Source: Gemmatimonadota bacterium
Lineage (GTDB): Bacteria > Gemmatimonadota > Gemmatimonadetes > Longimicrobiales > Gaopeijiaceae
DNA: 37,024 nt
Reading direction: 5' to 3'
NCBI GenBank assembly: GCA_003248075.1
Contig: QJYK01000297.1
Span: 1 to 37,024 of the forward strand
Below, piece by piece: positions 1,367-30,811 of the stretch. The notes beneath the pieces are model-generated. The model saw only the letters and a program-made list of their open reading frames with translations. It had not been told where the DNA came from and made no database searches. The translations under genes and the position numbers were made by a program. Each line of letters starts with the position of its first letter. Positions within the stretch are counted from its first letter, which is position 1.

Positions 1367-1690
1367 ATGGGCCGGGACACGCTGGGCGAGCTGGAGCATC
1401 AGACCCTGTTGGCCGCGCTGCGCCTCGGTGACGGCGCCTACACCGCGCCGATCGTCACCGAGCTGGAGGAGCGGACCGGGCGTGCGCACACCCTGGCCGC
1501 GGTGTACATCGTCTTGAGGCGTCTCGAGGACAAGGGGCTGGTGCGTTCATCGCTCGAGGACACGCCCGGTGGCCGCGACAGGCGATACTTCGGCGTGACG
1601 CCCGCGGGGCTGGAGAGGCTGAGGGAAGCGCGTCTCGCATACGAGAACCTGTGGGCGGGGCTCGACGTGCTCGGCGAGCGACGCTCATGA
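1367..1690 (+). CDS. PadR-family transcriptional regulator
   Basis: 107 aa winged-helix regulator. The N-terminus (GRDTLGELEHQTLLAALRLG), the segment AVYIVLRRLEDKGLV and the wing region GGRDRRYFGVTPAG are the usual PadR signature. The ATG at 1367 was chosen because a GGGAGG ribosome site lies 8 bp upstream (1353-1358) and family members usually begin just before this LGELE-like motif. An in-frame ATG at 1337 is possible but has no such site. The stop overlaps the start of the next gene (ATGA), so the regulator and the permease are translationally coupled. PadR regulators of this type typically repress their own promoter and the adjoining ADOP permease; a palindrome at 1319-1333 fits that. Confidence 0.88.
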   Translation: MGRDTLGELEHQTLLAALRLGDGAYTAPIVTELEERTGRAHTLAAVYIVLRRLEDKGLVRSSLEDTPGGRDRRYFGVTPAGLERLREARLAYENLWAGLDVLGERRS

Positions 1691-4305
1691 CCGATCCACG
1701 ACAACGGCCACCGGCGCTCTGGTCCTGGCTGCTCGCGCGCGTGCTCCCGGAGGGTGAAGGACCGCGGCTCGCGCACGAGCTCGAGACGTTGTACGCGGCG
1801 CGCCTGGCGCGTTACGGTTCGGCGAAGGCGCTGGCGTGGTATCGGAGGCAGGTCGTCGCGTTCACCCTGGCGGCCACGAGTCGCTCACTGGTTGCCGCTC
1901 CCCGCCAGGCGCGGGCGGCCGTGGGAGACCTGCTCCTCGCGGCTAGGTCGCTGTCCCGCGCTCCGTTCCTCGGCGTCACGGCGCTGGCGACCCTCGCCAT
2001 CGGGATCGGGGCGAGCGCGCTGGTGTTCTCCCTGGTGGACGGCGTCCTGCTTCGCGCCCTCCCGTACCCCGACGCCGACCGTCTCGTCGCGGTGTGGGAC
2101 CATGTCACCCGGGGGGAGCTCGGCGTGATCCGGGAGGAGGCCCGCTCCCTGGACGCCGTCCGCGGGTACCTGGACGTCGACCTGGGCGTGAACCTCGAGC
2201 GCGACGGCGGCGCCCAGCGACTGGCGACCTCGTTGGTGGAGCCTGGCCTGTTCGACATGCTGGGGGCCAGCCCCCTGGTCGGTCGCCTGTTCCTGCCCGA
2301 GGAGGCCGCGCCCGGGCGAACCGAGGTCACGATCCTCGGCGAGGGCCTGTGGCGCGCGCGCTTCGGCGCCGATCCAGAGATCGTGGGCCGTACGATCGTT
2401 CTGGACGGGCGCGCCCATGAGGTGGTGGGCGTGCTCCCGGTCGAGTGGACGTTCCCGCGTCCCACCGACCAGCTCTGGCTCCCCCTGGGGTGGGACCCCA
2501 CCCAGGTCGGCCCCTTCTGGGGAGCGGGGGGTGTCCGGGCGGTGGCACGGCTGTCGTCGGGCGCCAAGCCGGCCTCGGCCCAGGAGGAGCTGCGTGCCCT
2601 CAGTCCGACGCTGTCTCGCCGGAACCCGCTTTGGTCACCGTCCCCCGACTATCGACGGCAGGCGGGGGTGGTCCCGCTCCGTGATGCCCTCACCGGCGAC
2701 GTGCGCGGAGCCCTGGGACTCCTTCTGGCCGCGGTCGCGGTCATGCTCCTCGCCGCGTGCGCGAACGTCGCGGGCCTGCTGATCACCCGCGCCGTCGACC
2801 GTCAGCCGCTGGTGGCGCTCAGGGCGGCGCTCGGCGCGGGTCGTGCCCGCCTGGCCCGGGAGTCGCTGGCCGAGGGTGCGCTGCTCGGCGTCGTCGGTGC
2901 GGCCGGTGGCGCCATCCTGGCGCGCGCCGGGCTGGCGGTGCTCAGGCCGACGCTGCTGGCGCGCATCCCCCGCGCCTCGGAGATCTCCGTGGACGGACGG
3001 GTCCTCGCCCTGGCCGCGGTCATGGGGGTGGTCACGGGCCTCGTGGCCGCGGCCGCACCGACGGTCCGCGGCCTGCGGGGCGACCCCGGCTCGATCCTGC
3101 GCGAGGGGGGTCGAGGGGCCGGGAGGGGCCGACGCCGCGCGGTGCTCACCCGGATTCTGGTGACCGGCCAGATCGCTGCCGCGGTGGTCCTGGTGGCGTC
3201 GACCGCGCTGCTGGCGCGTTCCCTGGCGGCCATCGGGCGCACGGATCCCGGCTTCTCGACCGAAGGCGTTCTCACGGCGGAGGTGACGTTCCCCTCGACG
3301 GCTGATCCCAGCGCGGCCACCGGAACCTATGCAGGCATCCTCGAGCGCGTGGGTGCGCTCCCGGGCGTGACCGGAGCTGCCCTGGCCGGCTCAATCCCCT
3401 TCGGTCGCCGAAACGAGTCGTACGCGACCTACGTGGACGAGGCGGACCTCGACCCGAACGCGCTTCCCATGATCGACAGCGACCGGGTGAGCCCCGCGTA
3501 CTTCGCCACGCTGGGCATCCCGCTGCTCGAGGGGCGGGTATTCGGCTCCGACGACCGGGCGGGCGGTGAGCGCGTGGCGATCGTCGACGAGATCATGGCC
3601 AGGACGTATTGGCCCGACCAGAGCCCGATCGGCGGCCGGATCCGTTACCCCTGGGTGGGCGCCCCCTGGTTCCAGATCGTGGGTGTCGTAGGCTCGGTGG
3701 CGGACGACCGCCTCGGCGAGGAGCGCCGCCCGCGCTGGTACGTGCCGCTCGATCAGAACCCGGCCGGGGAGGTCGTCCTGGTCGTGTCTACGGAAGGCGT
3801 CCCGACCGCGCTCGCTCCCGCCGTCCGGGCGGCGGTGGCCGAGGTCGACCCTGGCCTCCCCCTCTCGAGGGTCTCGCCCTACGGCCGGCTCATCGGAGCG
3901 TCGGAGGCGCGCACTCTGCTGACCACCCGGCTGCTGGCCGGCTTCGCGGTGGTCGCCCTCCTGCTCGGGTGTCTGGGCGTGTACGGGGTGGCGGCGCAGG
4001 CCGTCCGGGAGCGGACCCGGGAGATCGGGGTGCGCATGGCGCTTGGGGCGGGGTCCAACACGATCGCGTCGGACGTCCTGATCGACGGGCTGCGACTGGC
4101 GGTGCCGGGCGCGCTCGCGGGCCTCGCCGGAGCGTTGGCGGCGAAGCGTGTCCTGGAAGGGATGCTCACGGGGGTCCGCGCCCTCGATCCGCTCGTCCTC
4201 GCCGGCGTTCCATTGCTGGTGGGGATCGTGGCCGTAGCGGCGCTTTGGCTCCCGGCACGGAGGGCGGCCCGGGTCGACCCGGTCGAAGTGATGCGCCGCT
4301 CCTGA
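1687..4305 (+). CDS. ADOP-class FtsX/MacB-like ABC permease
   Basis: 872 aa inner-membrane protein. Residues 1-70 form the basic 'permease prefix' seen in this class. A first transmembrane helix (about 96-120) is followed by LLRALPYPDADRLVAVWD, the hallmark start of the MacB periplasmic core domain. A first FtsX transmembrane block starts near residue 341 (ACANVAGLLITRA). A second periplasmic domain and a second FtsX block (about 745-865, with VRERTREIGVRMALGAG) follow, so the protein is an internal duplication with two FtsX units. The start ATG at 1687 overlaps the PadR stop by ATGA. Family knowledge: such proteins are FtsX-type permeases that often lack a neighbouring ATPase, and none is encoded here. 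The substrate is unknown; export or envelope mechanotransmission is plausible. Confidence 0.9.
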   Translation: MTDPRQRPPALWSWLLARVLPEGEGPRLAHELETLYAARLARYGSAKALAWYRRQVVAFTLAATSRSLVAAPRQARAAVGDLLLAARSLSRAPFLGVTALATLAIGIGASALVFSLVDGVLLRALPYPDADRLVAVWDHVTRGELGVIREEARSLDAVRGYLDVDLGVNLERDGGAQRLATSLVEPGLFDMLGASPLVGRLFLPEEAAPGRTEVTILGEGLWRARFGADPEIVGRTIVLDGRAHEVVGVLPVEWTFPRPTDQLWLPLGWDPTQVGPFWGAGGVRAVARLSSGAKPASAQEELRALSPTLSRRNPLWSPSPDYRRQAGVVPLRDALTGDVRGALGLLLAAVAVMLLAACANVAGLLITRAVDRQPLVALRAALGAGRARLARESLAEGALLGVVGAAGGAILARAGLAVLRPTLLARIPRASEISVDGRVLALAAVMGVVTGLVAAAAPTVRGLRGDPGSILREGGRGAGRGRRRAVLTRILVTGQIAAAVVLVASTALLARSLAAIGRTDPGFSTEGVLTAEVTFPSTADPSAATGTYAGILERVGALPGVTGAALAGSIPFGRRNESYATYVDEADLDPNALPMIDSDRVSPAYFATLGIPLLEGRVFGSDDRAGGERVAIVDEIMARTYWPDQSPIGGRIRYPWVGAPWFQIVGVVGSVADDRLGEERRPRWYVPLDQNPAGEVVLVVSTEGVPTALAPAVRAAVAEVDPGLPLSRVSPYGRLIGASEARTLLTTRLLAGFAVVALLLGCLGVYGVAAQAVRERTREIGVRMALGAGSNTIASDVLIDGLRLAVPGALAGLAGALAAKRVLEGMLTGVRALDPLVLAGVPLLVGIVAVAALWLPARRAARVDPVEVMRRS

Positions 4306-9039: not shown

Positions 9040-11685
9040 TCACTCCTCCCGGAGCGCCTCCACCGGGTCCACCACCGCGGCCCGCCAGGCAGGGACGACG
9101 CTCGCCAGCCCGGACACCGTGATCAGAACCAGCGCGATGCCCCCGTAGGTCGCGGGGTCGAACGGGGTGATCCCGAACAGGAGGGCTCGAGCCCATCGGG
9201 TGCCGAGGGGCGCGATCATCAGCCCGATGCCGAGACCGGCTCCGGACAGGAACAAGGCGCGACGTACCACGGCCCCGATCACTCCCCCGCGCGGCGCGCC
9301 GAGCGCCAGGCGCACCCCGATCTCCGCGCGCCGCCGGGTGACCCCGTAGGCGAGGGTCCCGTAGATGCCGAGCGAGGCGAGGAAGAGGGCGGCACCCCCA
9401 AAGAACCCCATGAGGAGCGCCAGGGAACGGGGGGCGGCGATCGCGCCGGCCACGCGCTCCTGCAGCGTCTGCACCGAGAACACGGGGAGCGCCGGATCCA
9501 CCTGCGCCACCACCTCACGGACCGTGGTGGCCAGTGCGGCGGCGTCGGCGCGGGTGCGCACGACGAAGTCCATTCCCCAATCGCCGAAATGACCGAACTG
9601 CGCCTGGGCGAAGGGCACGTAGACCGCGTTCCCCGGACCGTTGCCGATCCCGGTCTCTTCCACGTCGTCGACCACGCCCACGACACGATGCCAGTCGGCA
9701 CGTGCGTCGTCCGGGGAGAGCGACACGTCCGCCCCGAGGGCGTCGCCGTCCGGCCAGTAGGTATCGGCGGCGCTGCGGCTGACGACCACCACGGGCTCGG
9801 CTCCGGCGTCGTCGGTCGGCACCAGGCTCCTGCCCGCGACCAGCGGCAGTCCAAGGGTCTCGAAATAGCCCTCCAGCACGACGCGGGTATACGCCCGCAG
9901 CGGCGGCTCACCCGGGCGTCGCCGGTCGGTCCACGTGCTCCCCCACATCGAGCCGGTGAGCGGAAGCCGATTGACCGCAGAGACGCCGGTGACTTCGGGG
10001 CGAGCCGCGAGACCCACGCGGATGTCGTCGAGGACCCGCTGCGCCCCCTCGCGTCCCAGCTCCCAGGCCGGGGCGACGCGAAACACCAGCGCTCCGGCCG
10101 TCCTGTACCCGGGATCCACGGATCTCAGCCCGGCGAACGTCCGTGCCAGCAACCCGGCGCCCACCAGAATGACCGAGGTCAGCGCGACCTGGGCGACGAC
10201 CAGCGCCGCTCCCAGCCGCGCGCCCGAGGGGGCTGCCGCCCCCCGCGCCGCTCCGGCGGCTCCGCGCTCCACCGGTGAGGTCCGCAACGCCGGCAGGAGG
10301 CCGAAGGCCACGCCCGTGATCGCGGTCACGGCGAGGGTGTAGATCACGACCGACGGACTCAGCTCGACCGTGAGGCCGAAGGCCAGTCGCCCCGCCATGA
10401 GGGCCGCGATGCCCCGGGTCGCCGGGACGGCCAGAGCGAGCCCCGCGACGCCTCCGGCCGCGGCGAGGACCAGGGATTCGACCAACAGCTGCCGAAGCAG
10501 CGCTCCCCGTCCGGCGCCGATGGACGAGCGGATCAACATCTCCGTGGCCCTCGCCTCCCCCCGCGCGAGGAGCAGCGTCGCGACGTTGACCGACGCCACG
10601 ACCAGGAGAAGCCCGACCGCCGCCCAGAGGAGCAGCACCCCGAGTCGTGCGCTGCGCACGGCGACGTCCGCGAGGGGCTCCAGGAAGGGTCGGAAGCCGA
10701 CATTGGTCTCCGGGTGCGCCTCCTCCAGACCGCGGCCGATCGCGTCCATCTCGGTGCGTGCCTCTGCGAGGGTGACCCCCCGGGCCAGACGACCGATGGC
10801 GGACACCCAATAGGAATCCCGGGTCCCCCCGTCGTCCGGAGCCATGCCGAACGGTTTCCATACGTCGATGTCGGCGGCCGGGAAGCGGAAGGCTTCCGGC
10901 ATGACGCCCACGACCGTGAAGGCACGGTCCGAGAGCGTGATCCGCCGACCGATGACGCCCGGATCGGAGCCGTACGCCCGCGTCCACAGGCCATGGCTGA
11001 GAATCGCGACGCCGTCCCGACCCGGGTCGCCCTCCTCGGGCAGGAGGGCCCGCCCGAGCTCGGGGACGACCCCCAACACGCGGAAGAAGTCGGGCTCGAC
11101 GAGCGCGTATCGGATCCGTTCGGCCGCCGCGTCGGTTCGGAGGTTTCCTTCCCAGATGGTGTAGACGGCCAGGCTCTCCACCGTCCGTGAGGCGTCCCTC
11201 CAGTCACGGGCATCCTGCCAGGACGCGCTGGACCGGAGCCAACCGCGCTCGTCGTTCCGCTCCCAGATGCGGACGATGCGGTCCGGCTGGGGGAAGGGTA
11301 GATCCGGACGAACCACGGGGCGCACCGCCCCGAAGATCGCCGCATTGGCGCCGATCGCGATGGCGACCGTGCCGATCACCACGGCCGAGAATCCCTTGCC
11401 CCTCCAGGCCCGCCTGAAGGCGAACCCCAGGTCGCGCCTCCACCCGTCCATTCCGCCTCCCGATGTCGGTGATCGACGTGTTCGCCCCCACGATGCCGCC
11501 AAGTACCGCGCGGCCAGGCCGAGCGCCTCCCGCCAATACCAGGCCGCCGCCCTCCAACGTCCCCGGCGTCGACGCGCCGCGAGCTCCTCGTGCAGGTCGC
11601 CCAGGACGTCCTCGCGTCGCTCGTCCGGGAGGATGCGACGCAACAGGCGTGCTGCAAGTCGTGGAGGGCCGGGGGATGGATGCAT
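9040..11685 (-). CDS. ADOP-class FtsX/MacB-like ABC permease, no adjacent PadR
   Basis: 881 aa. The N-terminal prefix (AARLLRRILPDERREDVLGDLHEEL split at about 10-34) is typical of this permease class. A first helix (about 98-120, ending IGANAAIFGAV) is followed by the MacB core, a central FtsX block (around VNVATLLLARGEARATEM), a second periplasmic domain and a C-terminal FtsX block with RRAEIGVRLALGAPRGG. The ATG at 11685 was chosen because the only longer reading begins with TTG at 11715; neither start has a clear ribosome site. Unlike the other two permeases in this window, it has no PadR gene beside it. It is followed on the same strand by the multicopper oxidase after 81 bp and may share its transcript. 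The substrate is unknown. Confidence 0.88.
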   Translation of the reverse strand: MHPSPGPPRLAARLLRRILPDERREDVLGDLHEELAARRRRGRWRAAAWYWREALGLAARYLAASWGRTRRSPTSGGGMDGWRRDLGFAFRRAWRGKGFSAVVIGTVAIAIGANAAIFGAVRPVVRPDLPFPQPDRIVRIWERNDERGWLRSSASWQDARDWRDASRTVESLAVYTIWEGNLRTDAAAERIRYALVEPDFFRVLGVVPELGRALLPEEGDPGRDGVAILSHGLWTRAYGSDPGVIGRRITLSDRAFTVVGVMPEAFRFPAADIDVWKPFGMAPDDGGTRDSYWVSAIGRLARGVTLAEARTEMDAIGRGLEEAHPETNVGFRPFLEPLADVAVRSARLGVLLLWAAVGLLLVVASVNVATLLLARGEARATEMLIRSSIGAGRGALLRQLLVESLVLAAAGGVAGLALAVPATRGIAALMAGRLAFGLTVELSPSVVIYTLAVTAITGVAFGLLPALRTSPVERGAAGAARGAAAPSGARLGAALVVAQVALTSVILVGAGLLARTFAGLRSVDPGYRTAGALVFRVAPAWELGREGAQRVLDDIRVGLAARPEVTGVSAVNRLPLTGSMWGSTWTDRRRPGEPPLRAYTRVVLEGYFETLGLPLVAGRSLVPTDDAGAEPVVVVSRSAADTYWPDGDALGADVSLSPDDARADWHRVVGVVDDVEETGIGNGPGNAVYVPFAQAQFGHFGDWGMDFVVRTRADAAALATTVREVVAQVDPALPVFSVQTLQERVAGAIAAPRSLALLMGFFGGAALFLASLGIYGTLAYGVTRRRAEIGVRLALGAPRGGVIGAVVRRALFLSGAGLGIGLMIAPLGTRWARALLFGITPFDPATYGGIALVLITVSGLASVVPAWRAAVVDPVEALREE

Positions 11686-11708
11686 GGCCGGAGTCCGCGT
11701 CACGCAAG

Positions 11709-11725
11709 ATGACAATGTATGACAA
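11709..11725. promoter_or_regulatory. Tandem ATGACAA repeat in a divergent promoter region
   Basis: Two copies of ATGACAA (11709-11715 and 11719-11725) are separated by TGT, giving a 10-bp period, about one helical turn. They sit 24 bp upstream of the permease start and 196 bp before the divergent COG2403 gene. A second pair of short repeats, CACGCAA, lies at 11701 and 11741. Spacing on one face of the helix suggests a protein-binding site. No regulator gene is adjacent, so the assignment is tentative. The rest of the 235-bp gap 11686-11920 shows nothing I can name. Confidence 0.3.
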
Positions 11726-11920: not shown

Positions 11921-13249
11921 ATGAACGCGCACCGGCCTGCCCGGATCGCGATCCTCGGCGCGGGGGGACGTGACTTCCACGTCTTCAACACGCGCTATAG
12001 ACACGACCCGGACGTCGAGGTGGTCACCTTCACGGCCACCCAGATCCCGAGCATCGACGACCGCACCTACCCTCCGGTCCTCGCCGGCCCCCTCTACCCG
12101 ATGGGGATCCCCATCCACCCCGAGGACGACCTGGAGCGCCTGGTCGCGGAGCTGAGGATCGACGAGGCGGTCTTCGCTTATTCGGACGTCCCCCTGGATC
12201 ACCTCCAGGAGGTCAGGCGGCGCGTGGAGGGCGCGGGCTCGCGCTTCCGCACCTTCGATCCGGTTGCGACGCAGCTGCCCGCCACCCGGCCGTGCATCGC
12301 GGTGTGCGCCGCGCGTACGGGCTGTGGTAAGAGCGGCGTATCCCGTTACCTGGCCCGCGCGCTGCGCGCGCGCGGGAGCCGCGTCGCCGTGCTGCGTCAT
12401 CCCATGCCGTACGGACACCTGGAGCGGCAGGTCGTGCAGCGGTTCGCGCGCATCGAGGACCTGGCGACGCAACAATGCACGATCGAGGAGATGGAGGAGT
12501 ACGAGCCGCATATCGCGGCAGGCGGCACCGTCTATGCCGGGGCCGACTACCTCAAGATCCTCGGCGCCGCCGAGACCGAGGCCGACGTCATTCTCTGGGA
12601 TGGCGGCAACAACGACACACCGTTCGTCCGGCCCGATGTCTGGATCACGCTCCTGGACCCGCTCCGTGCCGGCGACGAGCTCCGTTACTTCCCGTCCCTG
12701 CCGAACCTCGAGCGCGCCGACTTCCTCGTGATCGTCAAGAGCGACCAGGCCGAGCGCGGCCAGGTAGAGGCGGTCAGCTCCAGCGCGGCGTCGCACAACC
12801 CGGAAGCACGCGTGCTGCTCGGCCGCTCGCCGTACGCCCTCGCCCAGCCGGATGCGGTCCGGGGCCGACGAGTGCTGGTCGTCGAGGATGGCCCGACCAC
12901 GACCCATGGCGGGATGGGCTATGGAGCCGGGTGGCTCGCGGCGCGCGCGGGCGGTGCGGCGGAGATCGTCGACCCGCGACCCTGGGTCACCGGCGAGATC
13001 GCCGATGCGTTCAAGAAGTATCCCCACCTCCGCGACATCCTCCCGGCGCTGGGCTACGGAGTTCGCCAGCTGGCGGACCTGGAGAGGACGATTCGGGCCG
13101 TACCGTGCGACGCAGTGGTGGTGGGCACTCCGATCGACCTGTCTCGCGTCATCCGCATCGACCAGCCGGCGGTACGTGTGACCTACGGGTACGCGGACGG
13201 GTCCGAGCCGGGGCTCGCGGAGCTGGTGCTCGAGCGTCTGGGTCTGTGA
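11921..13249 (+). CDS. COG2403-type P-loop protein, cyclic 2,3-diphosphoglycerate synthetase-like
   Basis: 442 aa. An N-terminal Rossmann-like segment (residues 7-35, ARIAILGAGGRDFHVFNTRY) is followed by a P-loop NTPase domain with Walker A near 131-138 (ARTGCGKS), an acidic Walker-B-like strand ending at D227 (VILWDGGNND) and VIVKSD near 270-275 in the position of a base-recognition motif. Length and layout match proteins annotated either as 'predicted GTPase COG2403' or as cyclic 2,3-diphosphoglycerate synthetase, an ATP-using enzyme known from thermophilic methanogens. In bacteria the true reaction is not established to my knowledge. It is the first gene of a tight run: carbamate kinase starts 11 bp after its stop. 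No Shine-Dalgarno sequence is visible before this ATG. Confidence 0.75.
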   Translation: MNAHRPARIAILGAGGRDFHVFNTRYRHDPDVEVVTFTATQIPSIDDRTYPPVLAGPLYPMGIPIHPEDDLERLVAELRIDEAVFAYSDVPLDHLQEVRRRVEGAGSRFRTFDPVATQLPATRPCIAVCAARTGCGKSGVSRYLARALRARGSRVAVLRHPMPYGHLERQVVQRFARIEDLATQQCTIEEMEEYEPHIAAGGTVYAGADYLKILGAAETEADVILWDGGNNDTPFVRPDVWITLLDPLRAGDELRYFPSLPNLERADFLVIVKSDQAERGQVEAVSSSAASHNPEARVLLGRSPYALAQPDAVRGRRVLVVEDGPTTTHGGMGYGAGWLAARAGGAAEIVDPRPWVTGEIADAFKKYPHLRDILPALGYGVRQLADLERTIRAVPCDAVVVGTPIDLSRVIRIDQPAVRVTYGYADGSEPGLAELVLERLGL

Positions 13250-13259
13250 GCGTGCGGCG

Positions 13260-14162
13260 ATGGACCTGATCGTCCTGGCGCTCGGTGGCAACGCGCTCCT
13301 GCGCAGGGGTGAGCGACTCACGACCCGTGCCCAGCAGGACAACCTCGTTCGTGCCAGCCGCGCCATCGCCGAGGTGGCCCGCGCGCACCGCGTGGTGGTC
13401 ACCCACGGCTCCGGTCCGCAGGTGGGCATGCTGGCGCAGCGCGCGGAATCGGCGGAGGGGTCCTGGCACGAGTCCCTGGACGTGCTCGAGGCCGAGATCG
13501 AAGGGATGATCGGGTATCTCCTCCAACGCGAAATCCGGAACAGCGCTCCCGAGCTGCGCGTCGTCACGCTCCTGACCCAGGTCGTGGTCGATCCCGAGGA
13601 CCCCGCGTTCAAGGCGCCCTCCAAGCCGATCGGCGTGGTGTACACGCGCGAGACGGCCCAGCGCCTCGCACGGGAGCGGAGCTGGGCCGTCGCCCCGGAC
13701 AGCCAGGGATGGAGGCGCGTGGTCGCCTCTCCGGACCCCATCCGGATCGTGGAGATCGAGAGCATCAGAACCCTGGTCGACGCGGGGCACGTGGTGGTGT
13801 GCGGAGGTGGCGGAGGCGTGCCCGTTCGCGAAACGGACGGAGGAGCCCTGACCGGCGTGGAGGCCGTCGTGGACAAGGACCTGACGACTTCCCTACTGGC
13901 GGTGGGTCTCGAGGCCGACCTGCTGTGCCTGCTCACCGACGTGCGCGGCGTGCATCGGCGCTGGCCGGACGACGGGGAGCCCATCCCCGAGATCCGCGTT
14001 CCGGAGCTCCGGCAGCTCGATCTGGCCTCCGGATCGATGGGGCCCAAGGCGCTGGCCGCCACGCGCTTCGCGGAGGCGACCGGCCGCGCGGCGGTGGTAG
14101 GGGCCATGGAGGAGACGGTGGCCCTGGTCGCGGGCCTTGGGGGTACGCGGGTGCTGCCGTGA
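13260..14162 (+). CDS. arcC: Carbamate kinase
   Basis: 300 aa, normal family length. Recognisable amino-acid-kinase motifs are ALGGNAL (7-13), VTHGSGPQVG (47-56), CGGGGGVPV (181-189), EAVVDKDLT (201-209, with the D206/K207 pair), LCLLTDVRGVH (222-232) and SMGPK (259-263). The enzyme interconverts carbamoyl phosphate + ADP with carbamate + ATP in the cytoplasm; catabolically it makes ATP. Normally it sits with arginine deiminase (arcA) and ornithine carbamoyltransferase (arcB), or with allantoin or agmatine genes. None of these is present here, and it lies between a COG2403 gene and PFOR genes, so the carbamoyl phosphate source is unclear. The ribosome site is weak, which suggests coupling to the upstream gene 10 bp away. 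Confidence 0.93.
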   Translation: MDLIVLALGGNALLRRGERLTTRAQQDNLVRASRAIAEVARAHRVVVTHGSGPQVGMLAQRAESAEGSWHESLDVLEAEIEGMIGYLLQREIRNSAPELRVVTLLTQVVVDPEDPAFKAPSKPIGVVYTRETAQRLARERSWAVAPDSQGWRRVVASPDPIRIVEIESIRTLVDAGHVVVCGGGGGVPVRETDGGALTGVEAVVDKDLTTSLLAVGLEADLLCLLTDVRGVHRRWPDDGEPIPEIRVPELRQLDLASGSMGPKALAATRFAEATGRAAVVGAMEETVALVAGLGGTRVLP

Positions 14163-14249
14163 CGGTCGACGCGCCCGTCGCGATGCCCCATCTTTAAGTG
14201 TCGTCCGAAGAGGACGCAGCCGGGCCGACCTGCCACGCCCCGTGGTGAC

Positions 14250-14268
14250 CCTCCCGCCCGACGGGAGG
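14250..14268 (+). promoter_or_regulatory. Hairpin covering the ribosome binding site of the PFOR fusion gene
   Basis: CCTCCCG (14250-14256) pairs perfectly with CGGGAGG (14262-14268) across a CCCGA loop. The right arm contains the GGGAGG Shine-Dalgarno sequence (14263-14268) that serves the ATG at 14275. A folded mRNA would hide the site, so translation of this gene could be gated separately from the carbamate kinase gene upstream. The pairing is plain in the sequence; a regulatory role is inferred. Confidence 0.4.
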
Positions 14269-14274
14269 ACACAC

Positions 14275-16530
14275 ATGGTCGAGATCCGGATCCACGGGCG
14301 CGGCGGACAGGGGGGCGTCACCCTGGCCAAGCTCGTCGCCACGTCGCGGTTCCTGACGGGACAGTCCGTCCAGGCCTTCGGTCTCTACGCGGCGGAGCGA
14401 TCCGGGGCGCCGGTGCAGGCATTCTGTCGCTTCGACGACGCACCGATCACCAACCGGAATCTCATCTACGAGCCGGATCACGTGGTCGTCCTGGATCCGA
14501 CGCTGATCGGGCCGGGTGTCTCCACGGGGCTGAAGGCGGGAGGGTGGATCCTGCTGAACTCGGGCGACTCGCCCGAGCATTTCACCGGTCTCTTCCCACA
14601 CAACCGGGTCGCGACGGTGGACGCGACCGCGATCGCGCGCGAATACGGACTCGGGACACGCAGCGTGCCGATCGTGAACACGGCGCTGGCGGGTGCGGTC
14701 GCCCGTATGCTGAGCATTGCGCTGGAACAGATGCTCGCGGCGTTGGAGCATCTGGGGTTCGGTGGCGGCAATGTCGCCGCGGCATCCGACGCGTTTGAGG
14801 CGATGCTCGCTTCGGACCTCCCGGCACGGGGGCCCGACGGTCAGGGAGGCGCCCGAGTCGGTCCCGCGGTCCGCGCGCCGAGCTTCCTGGACGGTGCGGG
14901 CGTGGATGCCCCGACGATCCTGACGGGCGAGTGGGCCTCCGAGCAGCCGCGGCGGAGCCAGTTCGTGCCACCCTGCAACCACGTGTGTCCGGCGGGCAAC
15001 GACGTCCAGGGCTTCCTGCACGCGTTGGCCGACGACCGCGCGGACGACGCGCTCGAGATCCTGCTGCGCACCTCGCCCTTTCCAGCCACGTGCGGCCGGG
15101 TCTGTCCGGCTCCGTGCATGGCGTCGTGCAACCGCATCCAGCTGGACGGCGAGGTCAACGTGCGCGCGCTGGAGCGGTACGCCGGCGATCGTGGACGGGT
15201 GGCTCTCGTCCCCTCCGGGTCCCGCCCCGAGCGGGTCGCGGTCGTCGGATCCGGGCCCGCCGGCCTCGCCGCGGCCTATCACCTCGCGCTGCTGGGATAC
15301 GGCGTCATCGTCTACGAGGGCGGCTCCCAGCTCGGGGGGCTCCTACGAAGCGGCATCCCCCAGTTTCGGTTGCCGGCCGACGTGCTGGACCGGGAGATCG
15401 GCCGGATCCTGGATCTGGGCGTCGAGGTCGTGACCGGTGTCTTCGTGAACCGGGAGCGCCTGCTGGCCCTGGCGCGCGCACACGACACGGTGCTCGTGGC
15501 CACCGGACTGCAGGAGATGCGTGCCCTGCGCCTGGGCATCGGCGACGACGAGGAAGCGGTGGAGCAGGGCATCGACTTCCTCGACCGCGTGCGCAGCGGT
15601 GCGCAGGAACGGCTGGATGGTGAGGACGTCGTCGTGGTCGGTGGCGGCAACACCGCGATGGACGCGGCGCGCTCCGCGATGAGGCTGGGTGCGGAGTCCG
15701 TCCGTGTCGTTTACAGAAGGGCACGGGAGCAGATGCCCGCAATTCGGGAGGAGATCGACGAGGCCCTGGAGGAGGGCGTCGTCATGGACTTCCTGACACA
15801 GCCGGTCGCGATCCACCGCATGGCCCAGGCGGACGGGGATCTGGGAGAGCGACACCTCTTGTGCAGACGCATGGAGCTTCGGGGAACGGACGCCTCGGGG
15901 CGACCGAGCCCGATGGAGGTGGCCGGGTCCGATTTCTCGATCCCCTGCCAGCGCGTGATCCTCGCGCTCGGTCAGTCGCCCGACCTTTCCGTGTTTCCCG
16001 AGGGAACCGAGATCCGTGAAGGCGCAGCGCTGATCGGGTTGCTGGAGACGCCCGTGTTCGCGGTGGGTGACCTGGCCACGAGCGAGGGGACCGTGGCGGC
16101 CGCCATCGGCAGCGGACGCAGGGCCGCGCTGCATATCCACCAGACCCTCACCGGCGAGGTCGTCGAGGTGGGCGAACGCATGCGCGTGCGCTCCGACGTG
16201 GACGTGTGGCACGACGAGGTGATTCGTGCCGAAGCGCTTCGGCTCCACCTGTTCGAGCGCGCCGGCACCGACGTCCAGGGCGAGATCGGACTCGATCGCC
16301 GCGTCACAACCTTCGACGAGGTCCACTCGGGGCTGACCGATCCGCGCGAAGCGCGCCGCTGCCTGTCGTGCGGGGTGTGCAACGAATGTGATCTGTGCGT
16401 GACGTACTGCCCCGAGGGTGTCCTCAAGCGCGTCGGGCACGACCTCGTGTTCGACTACGCGCACTGCAAAGGGTGCGGCGTCTGCGTCACGGAGTGCCCC
16501 AGGAACGTGGTGTTCATGAGCCACCTCTGA
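14275..16530 (+). CDS. Fusion of PFOR gamma subunit, GltD-like NAD(P)/FAD oxidoreductase and 2[4Fe-4S] ferredoxin
   Basis: 751 aa. Residues 1-185 are a pyruvate:ferredoxin oxidoreductase gamma domain (IRIHGRGGQGGVTLAKLV). Residues about 233-690 are a glutamate-synthase small-subunit-like (GltD) module. It has Fe-S cysteines (CNHVCPAGNDVQ, CGRVCPAPCMASC), an FAD fold (VAVVGSGPAGLAAAYH, near 322), an NAD(P) fold (VVVVGGGNTAMDAARSA, near 453) and the FAD-closing motif FAVGDLATSEGTVAAA (near 596). From about 697 there are two CxxCxxCxxxCP motifs (CNECDLCVTYCP and CKGCGVCVTECP), equivalent to the delta ferredoxin subunit. Together with the alpha and beta genes that follow, it supplies a complete enzyme plus a built-in route from Fe-S clusters to NAD(P). 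The ATG at 14275 has GGGAGG 6 bp upstream; an earlier in-frame start would overlap carbamate kinase and lacks such a site. Confidence 0.9.
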   Translation: MVEIRIHGRGGQGGVTLAKLVATSRFLTGQSVQAFGLYAAERSGAPVQAFCRFDDAPITNRNLIYEPDHVVVLDPTLIGPGVSTGLKAGGWILLNSGDSPEHFTGLFPHNRVATVDATAIAREYGLGTRSVPIVNTALAGAVARMLSIALEQMLAALEHLGFGGGNVAAASDAFEAMLASDLPARGPDGQGGARVGPAVRAPSFLDGAGVDAPTILTGEWASEQPRRSQFVPPCNHVCPAGNDVQGFLHALADDRADDALEILLRTSPFPATCGRVCPAPCMASCNRIQLDGEVNVRALERYAGDRGRVALVPSGSRPERVAVVGSGPAGLAAAYHLALLGYGVIVYEGGSQLGGLLRSGIPQFRLPADVLDREIGRILDLGVEVVTGVFVNRERLLALARAHDTVLVATGLQEMRALRLGIGDDEEAVEQGIDFLDRVRSGAQERLDGEDVVVVGGGNTAMDAARSAMRLGAESVRVVYRRAREQMPAIREEIDEALEEGVVMDFLTQPVAIHRMAQADGDLGERHLLCRRMELRGTDASGRPSPMEVAGSDFSIPCQRVILALGQSPDLSVFPEGTEIREGAALIGLLETPVFAVGDLATSEGTVAAAIGSGRRAALHIHQTLTGEVVEVGERMRVRSDVDVWHDEVIRAEALRLHLFERAGTDVQGEIGLDRRVTTFDEVHSGLTDPREARRCLSCGVCNECDLCVTYCPEGVLKRVGHDLVFDYAHCKGCGVCVTECPRNVVFMSHL

Positions 16531-16551
16531 CCTGTAGGAGGAGCTGCACTC

Positions 16552-17754
16552 ATGGCTCTGGAAGTCGTAACCGGGAACCACGCGGCCGGATACGCCCTCG
16601 CGGTCGCGGGAGAAGCAAACCGGGGGGCCCGAGGCGCCGCGTGCGGCATCTACCCTATCACGCCGCAGACCGAGATCGTCGAGCGCGTCGCGGGCTTCCC
16701 CTTCACGAAGGGCAGGGTCGTGCCGGTCGAGAGCGAGCACTCGGCGATGGCGGTGTCCATGGGTGCCTCGCTGGCGGGTGCGCGAGCCTTCACCGCCAGC
16801 TCCTCGAACGGCCTCGCGTACATGGTCGAGAACATCATGACGGCGGGCTTCTATCGGCTCCCCATCGTGATGGTCGCGGTGAACCGCACGCTGGGCCCAC
16901 CGTGGAACATCTGGGCGGACCAGGGTGACTCGCTGATGCTCCGGGACTTCCCCTGGGTTCAGCTCTATTGCTCGGACAACCAGGAGGTCGCGGACCTCAC
17001 GCTCCTGGCCTTCCGGCTCGCGGAGGATCGACGGATCCTGCTTCCGGTCCTCGTGTGCATGGACGCCTTCATCGTGTCCCACACACAGGCGGAGACCGAC
17101 CTGCCGGAACAGGAGCGGGTCGACCGCTATCTGCCGGAGTTGGAGCTGCCCCACCGCATGCGTCACGACGTGCCGAGGACGCTGGGTGGGCTCATCTGGC
17201 CGGACGTCACCACATCTCAGCGCTTCGATGTCGACGAGGCCATGCGACGGGTCCCGGCCGTGTACCAGGAGTGCCGCGACGCCTTCAGGAACGTCTTCGG
17301 CCGCGACCCCGGGGGCGTCCTCGAGGCCTTCCGGACGGAGGATGCCGAGACCGTGCTGGTCGCGTCCGCGACGATCGCCACGACGGTCCGCGACGTGATC
17401 GAGGCGCGCCGGGCCCGCGGCGAGCGTCTCGGACTCGTCAAGATGCGGATGTACCGACCCTTCCCCGAGGGCGAGCTCCACCGCGCGTGCGCCAGTGCGC
17501 GTCGGGTGGGCGTGCTCGATCGCGACTACGCGGCTGGAATCGGCGGCGTGTGGGGGCAGGATGTCCGGGCCGCCTTCCAGGGACATCGCGACGACGTTCT
17601 GGTTCAGGACTACCTGCTGGGCATCGGCGGCGGCGACGTCACCGCCGAGTCGATCGACCGGGTCCTGGACGACCTGCGCGACCGGGATCGGGCTGGACCC
17701 GCCTCGTGGGTCGATCTGGCCGTGGGGGGCGCCGGTCGCGAGGAGGTCGCGTGA
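16552..17754 (+). CDS. porA: Pyruvate/2-oxoacid:ferredoxin oxidoreductase alpha subunit
   Basis: 400 aa. Family signatures include GNHAAGYALAVAGEANRG, YPITPQTEIVE, the conserved VESEHSAMAVSMGASLAGAR, SSSNGLAYMVENI, and NIWADQGDSLMLRD followed by QLYCSDNQEV. These are the features of the alpha chain of four-subunit pyruvate oxidoreductases, which binds the thiamine pyrophosphate pyrimidine side and the substrate. The substrate is probably pyruvate, but 2-oxoglutarate or another 2-oxoacid cannot be ruled out by eye. A strong GGAGGAG site precedes the ATG. It begins 22 bp after the fusion gene and its stop overlaps the beta gene start (GTGA), so subunit synthesis is coupled. Confidence 0.92.
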   Translation: MALEVVTGNHAAGYALAVAGEANRGARGAACGIYPITPQTEIVERVAGFPFTKGRVVPVESEHSAMAVSMGASLAGARAFTASSSNGLAYMVENIMTAGFYRLPIVMVAVNRTLGPPWNIWADQGDSLMLRDFPWVQLYCSDNQEVADLTLLAFRLAEDRRILLPVLVCMDAFIVSHTQAETDLPEQERVDRYLPELELPHRMRHDVPRTLGGLIWPDVTTSQRFDVDEAMRRVPAVYQECRDAFRNVFGRDPGGVLEAFRTEDAETVLVASATIATTVRDVIEARRARGERLGLVKMRMYRPFPEGELHRACASARRVGVLDRDYAAGIGGVWGQDVRAAFQGHRDDVLVQDYLLGIGGGDVTAESIDRVLDDLRDRDRAGPASWVDLAVGGAGREEVA

Positions 17755-18671
17755 GCGCCGTGACGGAGGGGGCGTTGGCAGCGGGCTTTCCGTCCATTCC
17801 CTGCAGTGAGGAGTGCCTCCTGCGCCCTGGCAACACCAACTGCGGTGGCTGCGGCATGAGCATCGGGCTCACGATGCTCGGGCGTGCGCTGGAGGAGGCG
17901 GGCGAGGCCTGCATGATGGCGATCCCCGCCTGCTGCGGCGCGGTGACCGCGGGGGCGTTCCCGACCACGAGCTACGGGGTTCCGGTCGTGAACACCACGT
18001 TCGCGTCGTCGGCGGCGGTCGCGTCGGGCCTCGCAGCAATACGGGACCTGAACGGTGAGTCCGGCCAGGTCGTGTGCTGGGCCGGCGACGGAGGCACCTA
18101 CGACATCGGCATGGCCACTCTCTCCGCGGCCGCCGAACGGGACGAGGACATCCTGTACATCTGCTACGACAACGAGATCTACGGGAACACCGGCGGCCAA
18201 CGCTCGTCGGCGACACCTGCCGGAGCCCGCACGACGACCACGCCCTCGGGCAAGCGCGAGGGCAAGAAGGACATCGTGGGCATCATGGCGGCGCACGGGA
18301 TCCCTTATACGGCCACGCTGTCGATCGCCCATCCGGAAGACTTCCGCGAGAAGCTCCTCCGTGCGTTCGGCATTCGGGGGATGCGATTCCTGCTCATCCA
18401 CTCGCCGTGCCCCACGGGCTGGAAGTCCGAGCCCGGTGACTCGGTGGCGCTGGTGCGTCTGGCCGTGCGCTCGGGGCTGTTCCCGCTCCTGGAGGTCTTC
18501 GACGGAGAACGTTGGCGCTTGAACGCGGAGCCCGACGGCTCCGATCCCGCGGAGTATTTCCGCCGTCAGCGACGCTTCCGCCCGGACGAGCTGGACCTGG
18601 ACGCGATCCGTGCCGCGTGCAGGGCTCGACACGAGCGGCTCCGGACGCTCGCCGCGACCTTCCCCGCGTGA
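17751..18671 (+). CDS. porB: Pyruvate/2-oxoacid:ferredoxin oxidoreductase beta subunit
   Basis: 306 aa. The thiamine pyrophosphate motif runs from AGDGGTYDIG (111-120) to DNEIYGNTGGQR (140-151), the standard GDGxx...NxxYxNTGGQ pattern that binds Mg-TPP. Cysteines C31 and C34 (NTNCGGCG), the ACC at 60-62 and a later cysteine in HSPCPTGW are the expected ligands of the proximal [4Fe-4S] cluster. The GTG start at 17751 overlaps the alpha stop and has AGGAGG at 17741-17746. The protein completes an alpha-beta-(gamma/GltD/delta) enzyme. Its gene ends 4 bp before the stop of the convergent LuxR-type gene. Confidence 0.92.
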   Translation: MSAVTEGALAAGFPSIPCSEECLLRPGNTNCGGCGMSIGLTMLGRALEEAGEACMMAIPACCGAVTAGAFPTTSYGVPVVNTTFASSAAVASGLAAIRDLNGESGQVVCWAGDGGTYDIGMATLSAAAERDEDILYICYDNEIYGNTGGQRSSATPAGARTTTTPSGKREGKKDIVGIMAAHGIPYTATLSIAHPEDFREKLLRAFGIRGMRFLLIHSPCPTGWKSEPGDSVALVRLAVRSGLFPLLEVFDGERWRLNAEPDGSDPAEYFRRQRRFRPDELDLDAIRAACRARHERLRTLAATFPA

Positions 18672-18675
18672 GGCG

Positions 18676-19263
18676 TCATGGAAGCTCGCGCCGCTGGGGC
18701 CCCGCTTCGACCTCGTCCTCGGGGAGCATGAGATGCTCGAGGAAGAATGCCGCCAGCTCCGCCCGACCGGAGACGGACGCCTTCCGGTAGGTGGAAGCGG
18801 CGTGTTGCCGGACCGTCTGGTCGGATCGGCCCGTGCGACGAGCGATGGCCTTGTGCGAGTGACCCTTCATGAGGAGCAGGGCCACCTCGCGCTCGGCCGG
18901 CGTGAGGCCCCAGGTATCGAACTGGTCGGCGATCGCGCGCCCCAGCCCCTCGAGGGCCGCCTGGGCGCTCGCGCGCCACGCGTCGCGCTCCTCGCGACGC
19001 ATTTCCAGGGAGCGGCGCAACGCGTCGACCGAGCGCGCGCTGTTCCGCCAACCCAACCAGAGCGCGGTGGCCATGACCAGGCCCCCCGCGATCAGCAGCA
19101 GCTCGAAGACGACGTGGAAGCTCAGCCAGCTCTGTGGGCGGTCGAGAAAGAGGTCCACGCTCCCGCCGACCACGATCGAGCCGAGAGCCAACGCCAATAC
19201 CAGACCGAGGCGGCCCGAGGCCAGCCGGGACTCCCATCCATCATCCGTTGGAGGTCCATCCAT
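18676..19263 (-). CDS. Membrane-anchored LuxR-family transcriptional regulator
   Basis: 195 aa. Two transmembrane helices (about 18-38 and 48-71) are followed by a charged, probably coiled-coil segment (about 75-105). A C-terminal LuxR/GerE helix-turn-helix occupies 119-180 (LTPAEREVALLLMKGHSHKA, then RSDQTVRQHAASTYRKA). There is no receiver or ligand-binding domain, so it would sense through the membrane segments or by association with another membrane protein. The ATG at 19263 was chosen over an upstream TTG at 19290. It is convergent with the PFOR beta gene and divergent from the DUF2231 gene 96 bp away. The latter suggests control of the electron-transfer genes to the right. Confidence 0.8.
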   Translation of the reverse strand: MDGPPTDDGWESRLASGRLGLVLALALGSIVVGGSVDLFLDRPQSWLSFHVVFELLLIAGGLVMATALWLGWRNSARSVDALRRSLEMRREERDAWRASAQAALEGLGRAIADQFDTWGLTPAEREVALLLMKGHSHKAIARRTGRSDQTVRQHAASTYRKASVSGRAELAAFFLEHLMLPEDEVEAGPQRRELP

Positions 19264-19359
19264 TCGCGGCCCTGCGTGCGGCGAAGACAACGTGTGCGGG
19301 ATAGCCGTCCGAGGAACGGGGATCGACGTTCATGCCATACACCAACGGAGCGTGTCCCG

Positions 19360-28168: not shown

Positions 28169-30811
28169 GTGCGCATCCTGTTCGAGGTCCTGCTCGCGCT
28201 GACGCCCCGCGACTTCCGCAGGGAATTCGGGGACGAGCTGCGCCGTGTGGCGGACGAGCGCTGTCGGGAGGCGCGGGAGCAGCGCGGTCGAATGGCCGCC
28301 GCCTCGGCCCGCGCGCGCGAGGTCCTCGCGCTCGGCCGCGTGGCGCTGGAGCTTCGGCGCGCCGCCACCCCCGCCGGCGCGGTGACCCTGGAGTCGGTGG
28401 CTCGGGACCTGGGGCTGGGCGCCCGCTCTCTGGCACGGCGACCCGGCTTCGCGTTGATCACGGCAGGAACTCTGGGACTCGGGATCGGGTCCGTGACGAC
28501 CATGTTCAGCGCCGTGAACACGGTGCTGCTCCGACCGCTCCCCTACGCCGATTCCGACCGCATCGTCACGCTGTTCCGGACCGACCTCGAGACGGGTGAG
28601 CGCGGCAACGGCATGTCTGCCGCCGACGTCGTCGACATTGGTGCGATCGCGACGCGCATGGAGTCGGTGGCGGTGGCCGAGCCGTGGAGCCTCGACTACC
28701 GGGTCGACGACCGAACCGAGAGCCTGCGCGCGTGGGCGGTCTCGAGCGCGTTCTTCGAGGCCCTCGGGGTGGAGCCGATCCTGGGCAGGACCTTCGTGCC
28801 CCTGGAATACGCGGACGGTGGCGACGCCGTCGCGATCCTCGGGCACGGGGCTTGGGTGAGCCGCTTCGGAGCGGATCCGGGCATCGTCGGGGGAACGCTG
28901 ACGCTGGACGCATCGCCCACGACCATCGTAGGAGTGCTCCCGCCGGAGTTCGGCTTTCCCAACCGGGCCGAGCTGTGGCTGCCGCGGCCGCCGCGGTCCT
29001 GGGACCAGGAGTCGCGCAGCCAGGATTTCATGGCCGGGGTGGCTCGGTTGGGCCCCGGCGCATCTCTGGCCGAGGCGCGGGCCGAGCTGGACCGGATCGG
29101 GACATCGTTGGCCGAAGACTACCCCGAATCGAATTGGGGGTCGGGCTTCACGGCCGTCCCGCTCAGGGATCATCTCTTCGGGGATGTGCGCACGCCCCTT
29201 CTGGTGATGCTCGTCGCCGTCGCGCTCGTGCTCTTGATCGCCTGCGCGAACGTGGCGGCGCTGGTGCTGTCCCGGGGCGCCCAGCGGGAGCGCGAGTACG
29301 CCCTTCGGGGCGCCATGGGTGCCGGCATCGGACGGATGATCGCGCATGTCGCGGCGGAGAGCGTCGTGCTGGCGGGTGCCGGATGCGTCTTGGGTATCGG
29401 GATGACCTATGGCGGCGTCGCCGCGCTCCGACGCCTCGGCCCGAGCCACCTACCGAGGATCGACGAGCTGCAGGTCGACGGGACAGTGCTCCTCTTCGGG
29501 ATCGCCCTGGGCGCGCTGAGCGCGTTGCTGGCCGGACTCACTCCATGCCTTCGCCTGGCCCGGCCCGACCTGGCGGGGGCCCTGTCCGACGGTGCTCGAG
29601 GGACCGGCGGCCTGCGTCACCGACGCCTGCGAGGCCGACTCGTGGTCGTGCAGGTCGCGTCCTCCATGGTTCTCCTGATCGGTGCGGGCCTGCTCCTTCG
29701 GAGCTTCCGGACCCTGGTGGGCCAGGAGCTCGGCTTCGATCCCCAGGACCGGCTGGCGGTACAACTGTTCGCGTACGACTACGCGAACCCTGGCGAGCGA
29801 TCTGCGTTCCTGTCGCGTGCGATCGAGAATGTCGAGGCCGTGCCAGGAGTCCGCGGCGTGGCGCTCACGTCCGAGGTGCCGGGCGCAACCGACGGCGTGA
29901 TCGCCCGCCTGGACATCGACTTGCCCTTCACGATCGCCGACCGCGCCGTTCCACCCGCCGGGCAGGAGCCGGTCGCTCGGGCGAACGCGGTCTCGCCCGA
30001 CTACTTCGAGCTGATGGGCATTCAGGTCCTCTCGGGGCGGGGCCCGGCGCGCTCGGACCTCCCGGAGACACCTCCGGTGATCGCGGTCAACGAGACCCTG
30101 TCGCGCCAGATCTCCGGCGACGGAAACCCCATCGGCGAACGGCTGCGCATCCGTTTCGGGCGGCGGGACGTGGACTGGGAGGTGGTGGGCGTCGTTCGCG
30201 ACATCAGGGCGCTGGGGCACGCCTCGGAGCCTCGCGCCGAGGTCTTCTTCCCCATGAGCCAGGTGGATGTCGGGAGCCTGGTGCTGGTGGCCAGAACCGA
30301 GGTCGATGCCGCAACGCTCACACGCGCCGTCATGGAGGCGATCTGGCGCGCCAATCCGGCGCAATCGATCTGGGGCGTCTCGACCGTGGACGGCCTGGTC
30401 GCAGATTGGCTCCGGGGACGTCGGTTCAACCTCTTGCTTCTCTCCGCTTTTGCGACCGTCTCGTTGGTGCTCGCCGCCGTGGGCATCTATGGGCTCGTGA
30501 GCTTCTCGGTCGAGCGACGCGTGGCGGAGCTCGGCATCCGTCGCGCGCTCGGTGGCGGGAGTGCCGCGCTGATGGGGATGGTGATCCGAGAAGGAGCCAC
30601 GCTGGCGGGAATCGGCGTCGCGCTGGGTGTCGTCATCGCGCTGGGACTGTCCCGCTTCATTCGCGGAATGCTCTATGGCGTGGAGCCCACCGATCCGCTG
30701 ACGGTCGGAGCTCTGGCCGCTTCGATGCTCGCGGTGGCCATGGCCGCTTCTCTGGTGCCCGCGCTGAGGGCGATGCGCGTCGATCCCGTCCGCGTGCTGC
30801 GTGGCGAGTGA
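28169..30811 (+). CDS. ADOP-class FtsX/MacB-like ABC permease
   Basis: 880 aa. The prefix domain (PRDFRREFGDELRRVADERC) is followed by a helix near 94-116, LLRPLPYADSDRIVTLF opening the MacB core, and a central FtsX block with LIACANVAALVLSRGAQRER. A second MacB-like core and a final FtsX block follow (ERRVAELGIRRALGGGSAAL); the last residues, MRVDPVRVLRGE, match the conserved C-terminus. The GTG at 28169 lies one base after the PadR stop. No ATPase or membrane-fusion protein is nearby, as is common for this class. It is the third such permease in the window, and the three are clearly diverged from each other rather than recent copies. Confidence 0.9.
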   Translation: MRILFEVLLALTPRDFRREFGDELRRVADERCREAREQRGRMAAASARAREVLALGRVALELRRAATPAGAVTLESVARDLGLGARSLARRPGFALITAGTLGLGIGSVTTMFSAVNTVLLRPLPYADSDRIVTLFRTDLETGERGNGMSAADVVDIGAIATRMESVAVAEPWSLDYRVDDRTESLRAWAVSSAFFEALGVEPILGRTFVPLEYADGGDAVAILGHGAWVSRFGADPGIVGGTLTLDASPTTIVGVLPPEFGFPNRAELWLPRPPRSWDQESRSQDFMAGVARLGPGASLAEARAELDRIGTSLAEDYPESNWGSGFTAVPLRDHLFGDVRTPLLVMLVAVALVLLIACANVAALVLSRGAQREREYALRGAMGAGIGRMIAHVAAESVVLAGAGCVLGIGMTYGGVAALRRLGPSHLPRIDELQVDGTVLLFGIALGALSALLAGLTPCLRLARPDLAGALSDGARGTGGLRHRRLRGRLVVVQVASSMVLLIGAGLLLRSFRTLVGQELGFDPQDRLAVQLFAYDYANPGERSAFLSRAIENVEAVPGVRGVALTSEVPGATDGVIARLDIDLPFTIADRAVPPAGQEPVARANAVSPDYFELMGIQVLSGRGPARSDLPETPPVIAVNETLSRQISGDGNPIGERLRIRFGRRDVDWEVVGVVRDIRALGHASEPRAEVFFPMSQVDVGSLVLVARTEVDAATLTRAVMEAIWRANPAQSIWGVSTVDGLVADWLRGRRFNLLLLSAFATVSLVLAAVGIYGLVSFSVERRVAELGIRRALGGGSAALMGMVIREGATLAGIGVALGVVIALGLSRFIRGMLYGVEPTDPLTVGALAASMLAVAMAASLVPALRAMRVDPVRVLRGE

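Follow-up and report, generated by a model that had tools for sequence, protein, structure and literature searches.

Does a run of five closely spaced genes carry out one pathway, or are two separate units set end to end? The question is raised by positions 11921-18671 of contig QJYK01000297.1 (assembly GCA_003248075.1), from a Gemmatimonadota bacterium of the Gaopeijiaceae; the whole stretch analysed, 37,024 nt, is called the window below. Five genes follow one another there on the plus strand: g1, encoding a P-loop protein; arcC, encoding a carbamate kinase; and porGD, porA and porB, encoding a PFOR-type 2-oxoacid:acceptor oxidoreductase. An earlier note on this DNA had described gaps of 10, 112 and 21 bp and one overlap between these genes and had proposed a pathway joining carbamoyl phosphate/ATP turnover to 2-oxoacid oxidation. 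Open reading frames (ORFs) and a reading of the junctions bear out the arrangement. The pathway itself is mostly not borne out and found no direct support. We consider it reasonably probable that the block consists of two modules, g1-arcC and porGD-porA-porB, lying end to end in the window genome.

The association of g1 with carbamate kinase is real and recurrent. A scan of genome contigs with the g1 alignment returned at least 586 relatives, from which we kept a wide set of 80 g1 loci, from many bacterial and archaeal phyla, with flanks of up to 10 kb on each side. An arcC gene lies within these flanks at 28 of the 80. At 20 of the 69 loci with at least 1 kb of downstream sequence, spread over many bacterial phyla, arcC starts no more than 300 bp downstream of g1 on the same strand, and some of these pairs overlap by 4 bases, by the chosen start codons. 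Chance adjacency is rejected by the count of 20/69, under a binomial that assumes a chance of 1 in 1500. Genes outside the window were called with simple ORF pickers, which misplaced some of them, and g1, which they missed at 6 of the 80 loci, was forced as the seed. The association is undescribed as far as we searched the literature, where we found no account of a g1-type protein paired with carbamate kinase.

Neighbour counts place other enzymes beside this pair. They cover same-strand genes at 125 g1 loci, the window excluded; 75 of these loci have such a gene at position +1, and positions +1 and +2 together form the near-downstream set of 124 proteins. AA_kinase is the commonest Pfam family in that set (23), with CoA ligase at 9, OTCase at 8 and ATP-grasp_2 at 7. 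In a far control, a random 124 of 298 proteins, AA_kinase, OTCase and CoA ligase all fall outside the 25 families listed, the last rows of which have 2 members; POR_N has 2. Upstream neighbours are mixed, with 2 OTCase and 4 phosphoglycerate mutase proteins among 117, the latter from one family. Because of these near-neighbour counts against the far control, we regard g1 as tied to carbamate kinase, carbamoyltransferase and, in some phyla, succinyl-CoA synthetase; no such tie to PFOR was seen, and the POR families are outside the 25 commonest next to g1. Single loci give the gene orders. Three (L191, L208 and L215) carry g1-arcC-carbamoyltransferase sets, and L181 has ornithine carbamoyltransferase (OTC), arcC, a carbamoyltransferase, ornithine aminotransferase and g1 in that order. 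In L195 and L207, g1 and arcC are followed by a tRNA nucleotidyltransferase-like gene, sucCD, a 2-oxoacid oxidoreductase gene and ndk. For L181 the OTC and aminotransferase, and for L195 the oxidoreductase, were checked by NCBIfam; the other names in these sets come from similarity clusters.

The two genes also occur together by genome. Our phylum set comprised 249 genomes including the window's own, and with a threshold of E 1e-25 for arcC we found g1 in 27, arcC in 97 and a related full fusion (67-75% identity to porGD) in 8 besides the window genome. Carbamate kinase is present in 22 of 26 g1 genomes versus 74 of 222 others in the phylum, and in 17/24 versus 12/96 in the family set of 121 genomes. 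These comparisons ignore kinship; at the genus level the figures are 19/23 versus 43/89 (p = 0.0026). A general bias toward co-occurrence was considered and rejected on two control genes from elsewhere in the window, since multicopper oxidase occurs in 11/26 versus 112/222 genomes and amidohydrolase, which is depleted, in 3/26 versus 105/222. Multicopper oxidase homologues with one in-frame stop were seen in G042, G046, G054, G056, G060, G149, G163, G201 and G210 (genus g59).

The PFOR genes are found elsewhere. Neither g1 nor arcC lies near the PFOR fusion in any of the 8 phylum relatives that carry it, and in G287, from the window's own genus, g1, arcC and PFOR are on three different contigs (C7, C297 and C20). 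The PFOR genes themselves stay together: porA follows the fusion in all 8 relatives (cut by a contig end in L125) and porB in 6, the others being a fragment in L127 and the contig end in L125. In L127 (genome G125) the porB beside the fusion matches only residues 12-43, possibly as a broken or frameshifted copy or through an assembly error. The earlier note had held that its grouping would be accidental if relatives kept the PFOR genes without a recurrent link to g1 and arcC, and this is the arrangement at 8 of 8 loci and in G287. Half of that grouping, the recurrent link of g1 to arcC, is meaningful; the PFOR half looks like a juxtaposition in the window genome.

A search from the g1 side gave few PFOR genes. 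As a recurrent partner of g1, PFOR was rejected, with POR-type matches at only 5 of the 80 wide-set loci (132-209 bits in L221, weaker in the rest). Within the phylum, four of the 26 other g1 loci (L047, L049, L050 and L051) have weak POR or GltD-like matches, of 26-39% identity, 3-9 kb from g1. At L043 (4819-10667), the genes after g1, on its strand, encode IOR-like alpha and beta subunits as well as an acetate-CoA-ligase-like protein; the probes of the phylum scan had missed these IOR genes. This locus, like L195 and L207 with their oxidoreductase downstream of g1-arcC and sucCD, speaks for a single operon and a single pathway in the window, in which carbamoyl-phosphate/ATP turnover would be coupled to 2-oxoacid oxidation and NAD(P) reduction, for example in an amino-acid fermentation drawing ATP from carbamoyl phosphate and acyl-CoA. 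Shared strand, order and short gaps favour it too. We judge it quite unlikely nonetheless, given the separation of PFOR from g1 and arcC in the relatives and in G287, the place of the POR families outside the commonest neighbours of g1, and the leader that PFOR has of its own.

That leader lies in the 112-bp gap between arcC and porGD. Sequence upstream of PFOR aligns with these 112 bases in G190 (score 47), G287 (41) and, less well, G075 (33), each score being above all 500 of 500 single-base shuffles. Because no arcC was found upstream in those relatives, we take the gap sequence as the leader of the PFOR unit; the part at 14187-14270 on the plus strand resembles G190 and G287 by local alignment against such shuffles. 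The window, G190 and G287 have CCATCTTTA in common (14188-14196 in the window). The porGD start is an ATG at 14275 with GGGAGGA just 5' of it, and a hairpin at 14250-14268 covers the porGD Shine-Dalgarno sequence; it is also found in G190 and G287 (L122 and L283), with stems that are changed yet still pair. A further inverted repeat (14233-14245 in the window) is predicted to form a hairpin in the two relatives G190 and G287; it is absent from the minimum-energy fold of the window, where it is only possible. Folding z-scores are -1.3 for the window, -2.0 for G190, -3.2 for G287, 0.6 for G075 and -0.6 for G167. These resemblances suggest that PFOR may be under separate control, short of proving a promoter, and the hairpin region at 14233-14268 is a possible regulatory leader.

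Several observations weigh against the two-module reading. Beside g1, arcC is found at only 3 of 45 other loci of the phylum and family (0/26 and 3/19, many contigs being short), and near g1 at none of the 13 archaeal loci in the wide set. Reading up to 20 kb around the 26 phylum loci, several of them on short contigs, gave neither arcC nor the fusion beside g1. At E 1e-25 arcC is missing from 4 of the 26 g1 genomes, including G097, which bears the fusion and has its g1 in the window's wider clade, and G265, next to the closest relative of the window in the g1 tree, is also without arcC. The gap in G167 is not alike (score 15), a scan for promoters and terminators returned nothing above shuffles, and the 112-bp gap is compatible with read-through. 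Lastly, g1 occurs in 7 of 8 fusion genomes versus 19 of 240 others in the phylum, and in 4 of 5 in the family; this count leaves out the 37-38% fusions of G007 and G003, both without g1, with which it becomes 7/10. Two unrelated modules do not explain the co-occurrence of g1 with the fusion, unless a shared lifestyle does.

The presence of g1 somewhere in 7 of 8 fusion genomes speaks for a single pathway. Co-occurrence of g1, arcC and the fusion by genome, with no adjacency, also agrees with a lineage-specific regulon, in which unrelated chemistries would both be useful at low oxygen and PFOR, placed behind arcC, would gain shared read-through expression. The gap is short enough for this, and the separate leader before PFOR argues the other way; we think such a regulon unlikely, if conceivable. 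In the two-module reading that we prefer, a tight gene run can be two units, of which the PFOR half keeps its own leader.

Trees give this arrangement a history. They were built from 104 of 107 g1 rows and 35 of 37 arcC rows, with an extended run that took 38 arcC rows and 42 g1 rows picked by hand. The window's g1 groups with those of G273 and G265 (100/100) and next with G097 and a Planctomycetota contig, L142 (100/99), away from the majority of g1s in its phylum. For the window's arcC, the partner in the tree is the copy of G273 (96/88), and the two fall within the arcC clade of the window's family. Copies beside arcA (L132 and L133), beside arcA and OTC (L136), and others not beside g1 belong to that clade too. 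Because the window and G273 group in both trees, we infer that at least two genera have the g1-arcC pair by inheritance. Over the arcC tree, linkage to g1 must have changed at least three times on starred branches, and for these changes gain and loss are indistinguishable. In G273, the closest relative (g1 at 69-70%), g1 overlaps arcC and a transporter-like gene comes next, with no PFOR there. Elsewhere in the family arcC lies just after g1 in G269 and just before it in G263, and at none of the other 16 of 19 loci. PFOR behind the g1-arcC pair was seen only in the window.

What, then, might g1 do? The gene (11921-13249, plus strand) encodes 442 residues in two domains, an N-terminal Rossmann-like part and a P-loop part. 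No Pfam or NCBIfam model matched it at E 0.001; COG2403 is its putative label. Its profile found only cyclic-2,3-diphosphoglycerate synthetases (cDPGS) under E 1e-4 among solved structures (6.8e-12 for 9sxb, and 5e-6). An AlphaFold2 model built from 68 of the 104 g1 sequences (mean predicted local distance difference test score 94.9) agrees: cDPGS is the best fold match, followed by LpxK, HypB and UreG for the P-loop domain, so that the earlier description of the protein as cDPGS-like is upheld. The best solved match of the predicted fold is 8oru (Z 22.4 over 370 residues, 14% identity in the structural alignment), with a root-mean-square deviation (rmsd) of 12.3 that, over the whole length, suggests a different placement of the domains. 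In the model the P-loop domain superposes on LpxK 4ehy (Z 19.4, rmsd 3.3 over 281) and on 2hf8 of the HypB/UreG class (Z 18.2, rmsd 3.0 over 183), and Rossmann domains such as those of 3nkl (Z 13.7) and a Rex-family repressor (Z 13.2) are similar to the N-terminal part. DUF1611/DgcN was rejected as an identity, being represented by weaker fold matches only (2obn, 5.7e-05; 7xrj, 5.6e-04).

Motifs separate g1 from the synthetase. Its P-loop is RTGCGKS (residues 132-138), and RTG.GKS and WDGGNND are invariant or nearly so in 68 g1 relatives; 63 of the 68 retain NK of an NKxD-like motif, where the window's g1 has VKSD. In the Methanothermus fervidus enzyme, K145 and R146 at the P-loop contact 2,3-diphosphoglycerate (2,3-DPG), according to the published account (PMC10690619). 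Aligned by the P-loop, these positions correspond to T133 and G134 of g1, both invariant in the 68 relatives, and the contacting Lys and Arg are conserved neither in g1 nor in those relatives. Because these equivalents are not kept, we conclude that g1, as modelled, is probably a nucleoside triphosphate (NTP)-dependent enzyme of the cDPGS/LpxK fold class with another substrate than 2,3-DPG. That it is a true cDPGS making an osmolyte seems very improbable to us: the best fold and sequence matches point that way, as does a phosphoglycerate mutase gene that precedes g1 by two genes in four genomes from a single family, and against it stand T133 and G134, the conserved NK, the whole-length rmsd and the confinement of phosphoglycerate mutase near g1 to that one family among the counted neighbours (4/117). 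At the four loci (L046, L048, L052 and L056) an apgM-type phosphoglycerate mutase and a HAD hydrolase precede g1 and a peptidase M19 gene follows it; in L047 and L049 phosphofructokinase lies directly before g1.

The arcC gene (13260-14162, plus strand), 10 bp after g1, encodes 300 residues that score 377.5 bits against the NCBIfam carbamate kinase model NF009008 (cut-off 361) and 322.1 bits against TIGR00746, under the cut-off of 358.25, and match the solved carbamate kinase 8crv at 3.7e-83, which confirms the earlier assignment. The reported absence of arcA and arcB holds for the window's contig, on which arginine deiminase (PF02274) and carbamoyltransferase (PF00185) gave no match (no search was made for allantoin or agmatine genes). 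Elsewhere in the genome, which is 96% complete, lie two carbamoyltransferases unlinked to arcC and one DDAH-like protein of the arginine deiminase family, of 297 residues; the search of that genome found no full-length arcA. A canonical arginine deiminase operon was rejected, since the genome has no full arcA and neither arcA nor a carbamoyltransferase lies beside arcC. An OTC-family gene sits between hslU-like and gcvT-like genes, named by reading. Since this gene and a DDAH-like protein are present, and the search gave no full arginine deiminase, citrulline could be a source of carbamoyl phosphate for arcC.

We would expect arcC to convert carbamoyl phosphate and ADP to ATP, ammonia and CO2, or the reverse, and g1 to act as an NTP-dependent enzyme in the same pool of carbamoyl-phosphate/ornithine metabolism, most likely as a small-molecule phosphotransferase or ligase with a Rossmann-like substrate or cofactor domain. 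More broadly, and as a tentative proposal that may well be wrong, g1 could represent a widespread bacterial and archaeal enzyme family that shares carbamoyl phosphate or carbamate as a substrate pool with carbamate kinase and ornithine carbamoyltransferase; it would then carry out a so far unrecognised step in citrulline/ornithine energy metabolism, one able to stand in where arginine deiminase is absent. This is a strongly conserved P-loop family for which we found no tested function. That it recurs beside carbamate kinase and carbamoyltransferases provides a specific and cheap hypothesis.

Hydrogenase maturation consumes carbamoyl phosphate, and hydrogenase neighbours may for that reason bear on g1. 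At no more than about 9 kb from g1, L043 (14153-17473) encodes a NiFe hydrogenase large subunit and HypB, L050 (12257-18543) a NiFe hydrogenase large subunit and an HdrA-like/GltD protein, and L061 (2567-4722) HybA/HybB-like proteins; the cluster is present in L051 and L055 as well.

The second module contains every part of a four-part PFOR (alpha, beta, gamma and delta), as had been claimed. Domain searches of porGD (14275-16530, plus strand) gave POR gamma, Fer4_20, Pyr_redox_2 and a C-terminal Fer4, so that the product fuses gamma, a GltD-like FAD/NAD(P)H and 4Fe-4S module, and a 4Fe-4S delta part. After a gap of 21 bp comes porA (16552-17754, plus strand), the alpha subunit, with POR_N and PFOR_II. 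The beta subunit, porB (17751-18671, plus strand), carries TPP_enzyme_C for thiamine diphosphate binding and begins at a GTG in the 4-base overlap with the porA stop. The best model for porA is PorA_Arch at 356 bits, under its cut-off of 550, and the solved PFOR alpha subunit 9bt4 matches at 3.3e-76. NCBIfam scores sit under the Pad and Por equivalog cut-offs, with the PorC_KorC subfamily cut-off passed. By family, the enzyme would oxidise a 2-oxoacid, probably pyruvate, and its GltD-like domain would exchange electrons with NAD(P), by way of 4Fe-4S clusters and FAD; the direction of the reactions in both modules, like their separate transcription, is presumed. In the more distant fusions of G007 (C107:97423-99678) and G003 (C4:83895-86141; L130 and L131), in-frame stops interrupt the gamma and GltD-like parts, which is consistent with separate genes, and in L139 these parts match as two adjacent genes.

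The ORF caller listed g1, arcC, porGD and porA as long frames of coding-type composition; it missed porB, whose frame opens at an upstream start overlapping porA. A LuxR-type regulator gene (18676-19290, minus strand) converges on the block and ends 4 bases from the porB stop. Three long related genes of one similarity cluster, permease-like by reading only, lie in the 37 kb at 1651-4305, 9040-11715 and 28169-30811. No known RNA family or tRNA was found in the window.

Known systems resemble each half of the block. The arginine deiminase pathway arcA-arcB-arcC shares with it a carbamate kinase, and in the tree the arcC of the window clusters with copies from its family that neighbour arcA; the window differs in lacking arcA and in having g1 in the neighbouring place. 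Like g1, the cDPGS of M. fervidus (8ork/8oru) combines an N-terminal domain with an LpxK-like P-loop domain, whereas g1 has invariant T and G in place of K145 and R146, carries WDGGNND and a mostly kept NKxD-like motif, and has carbamoyl-phosphate enzymes as its recurrent neighbours. LpxK and the SIMIBI GTPases HypB and UreG have a superposable P-loop domain, to which g1 adds the N-terminal Rossmann-like domain. The NADH-dependent phenylglyoxylate dehydrogenase PadEFGHI and four-subunit PFOR share with the second module the alpha, beta, gamma and delta parts and the GltD-like NAD(P) module; in the window, by contrast, gamma, GltD-like and delta parts form one chain of about 750 residues.

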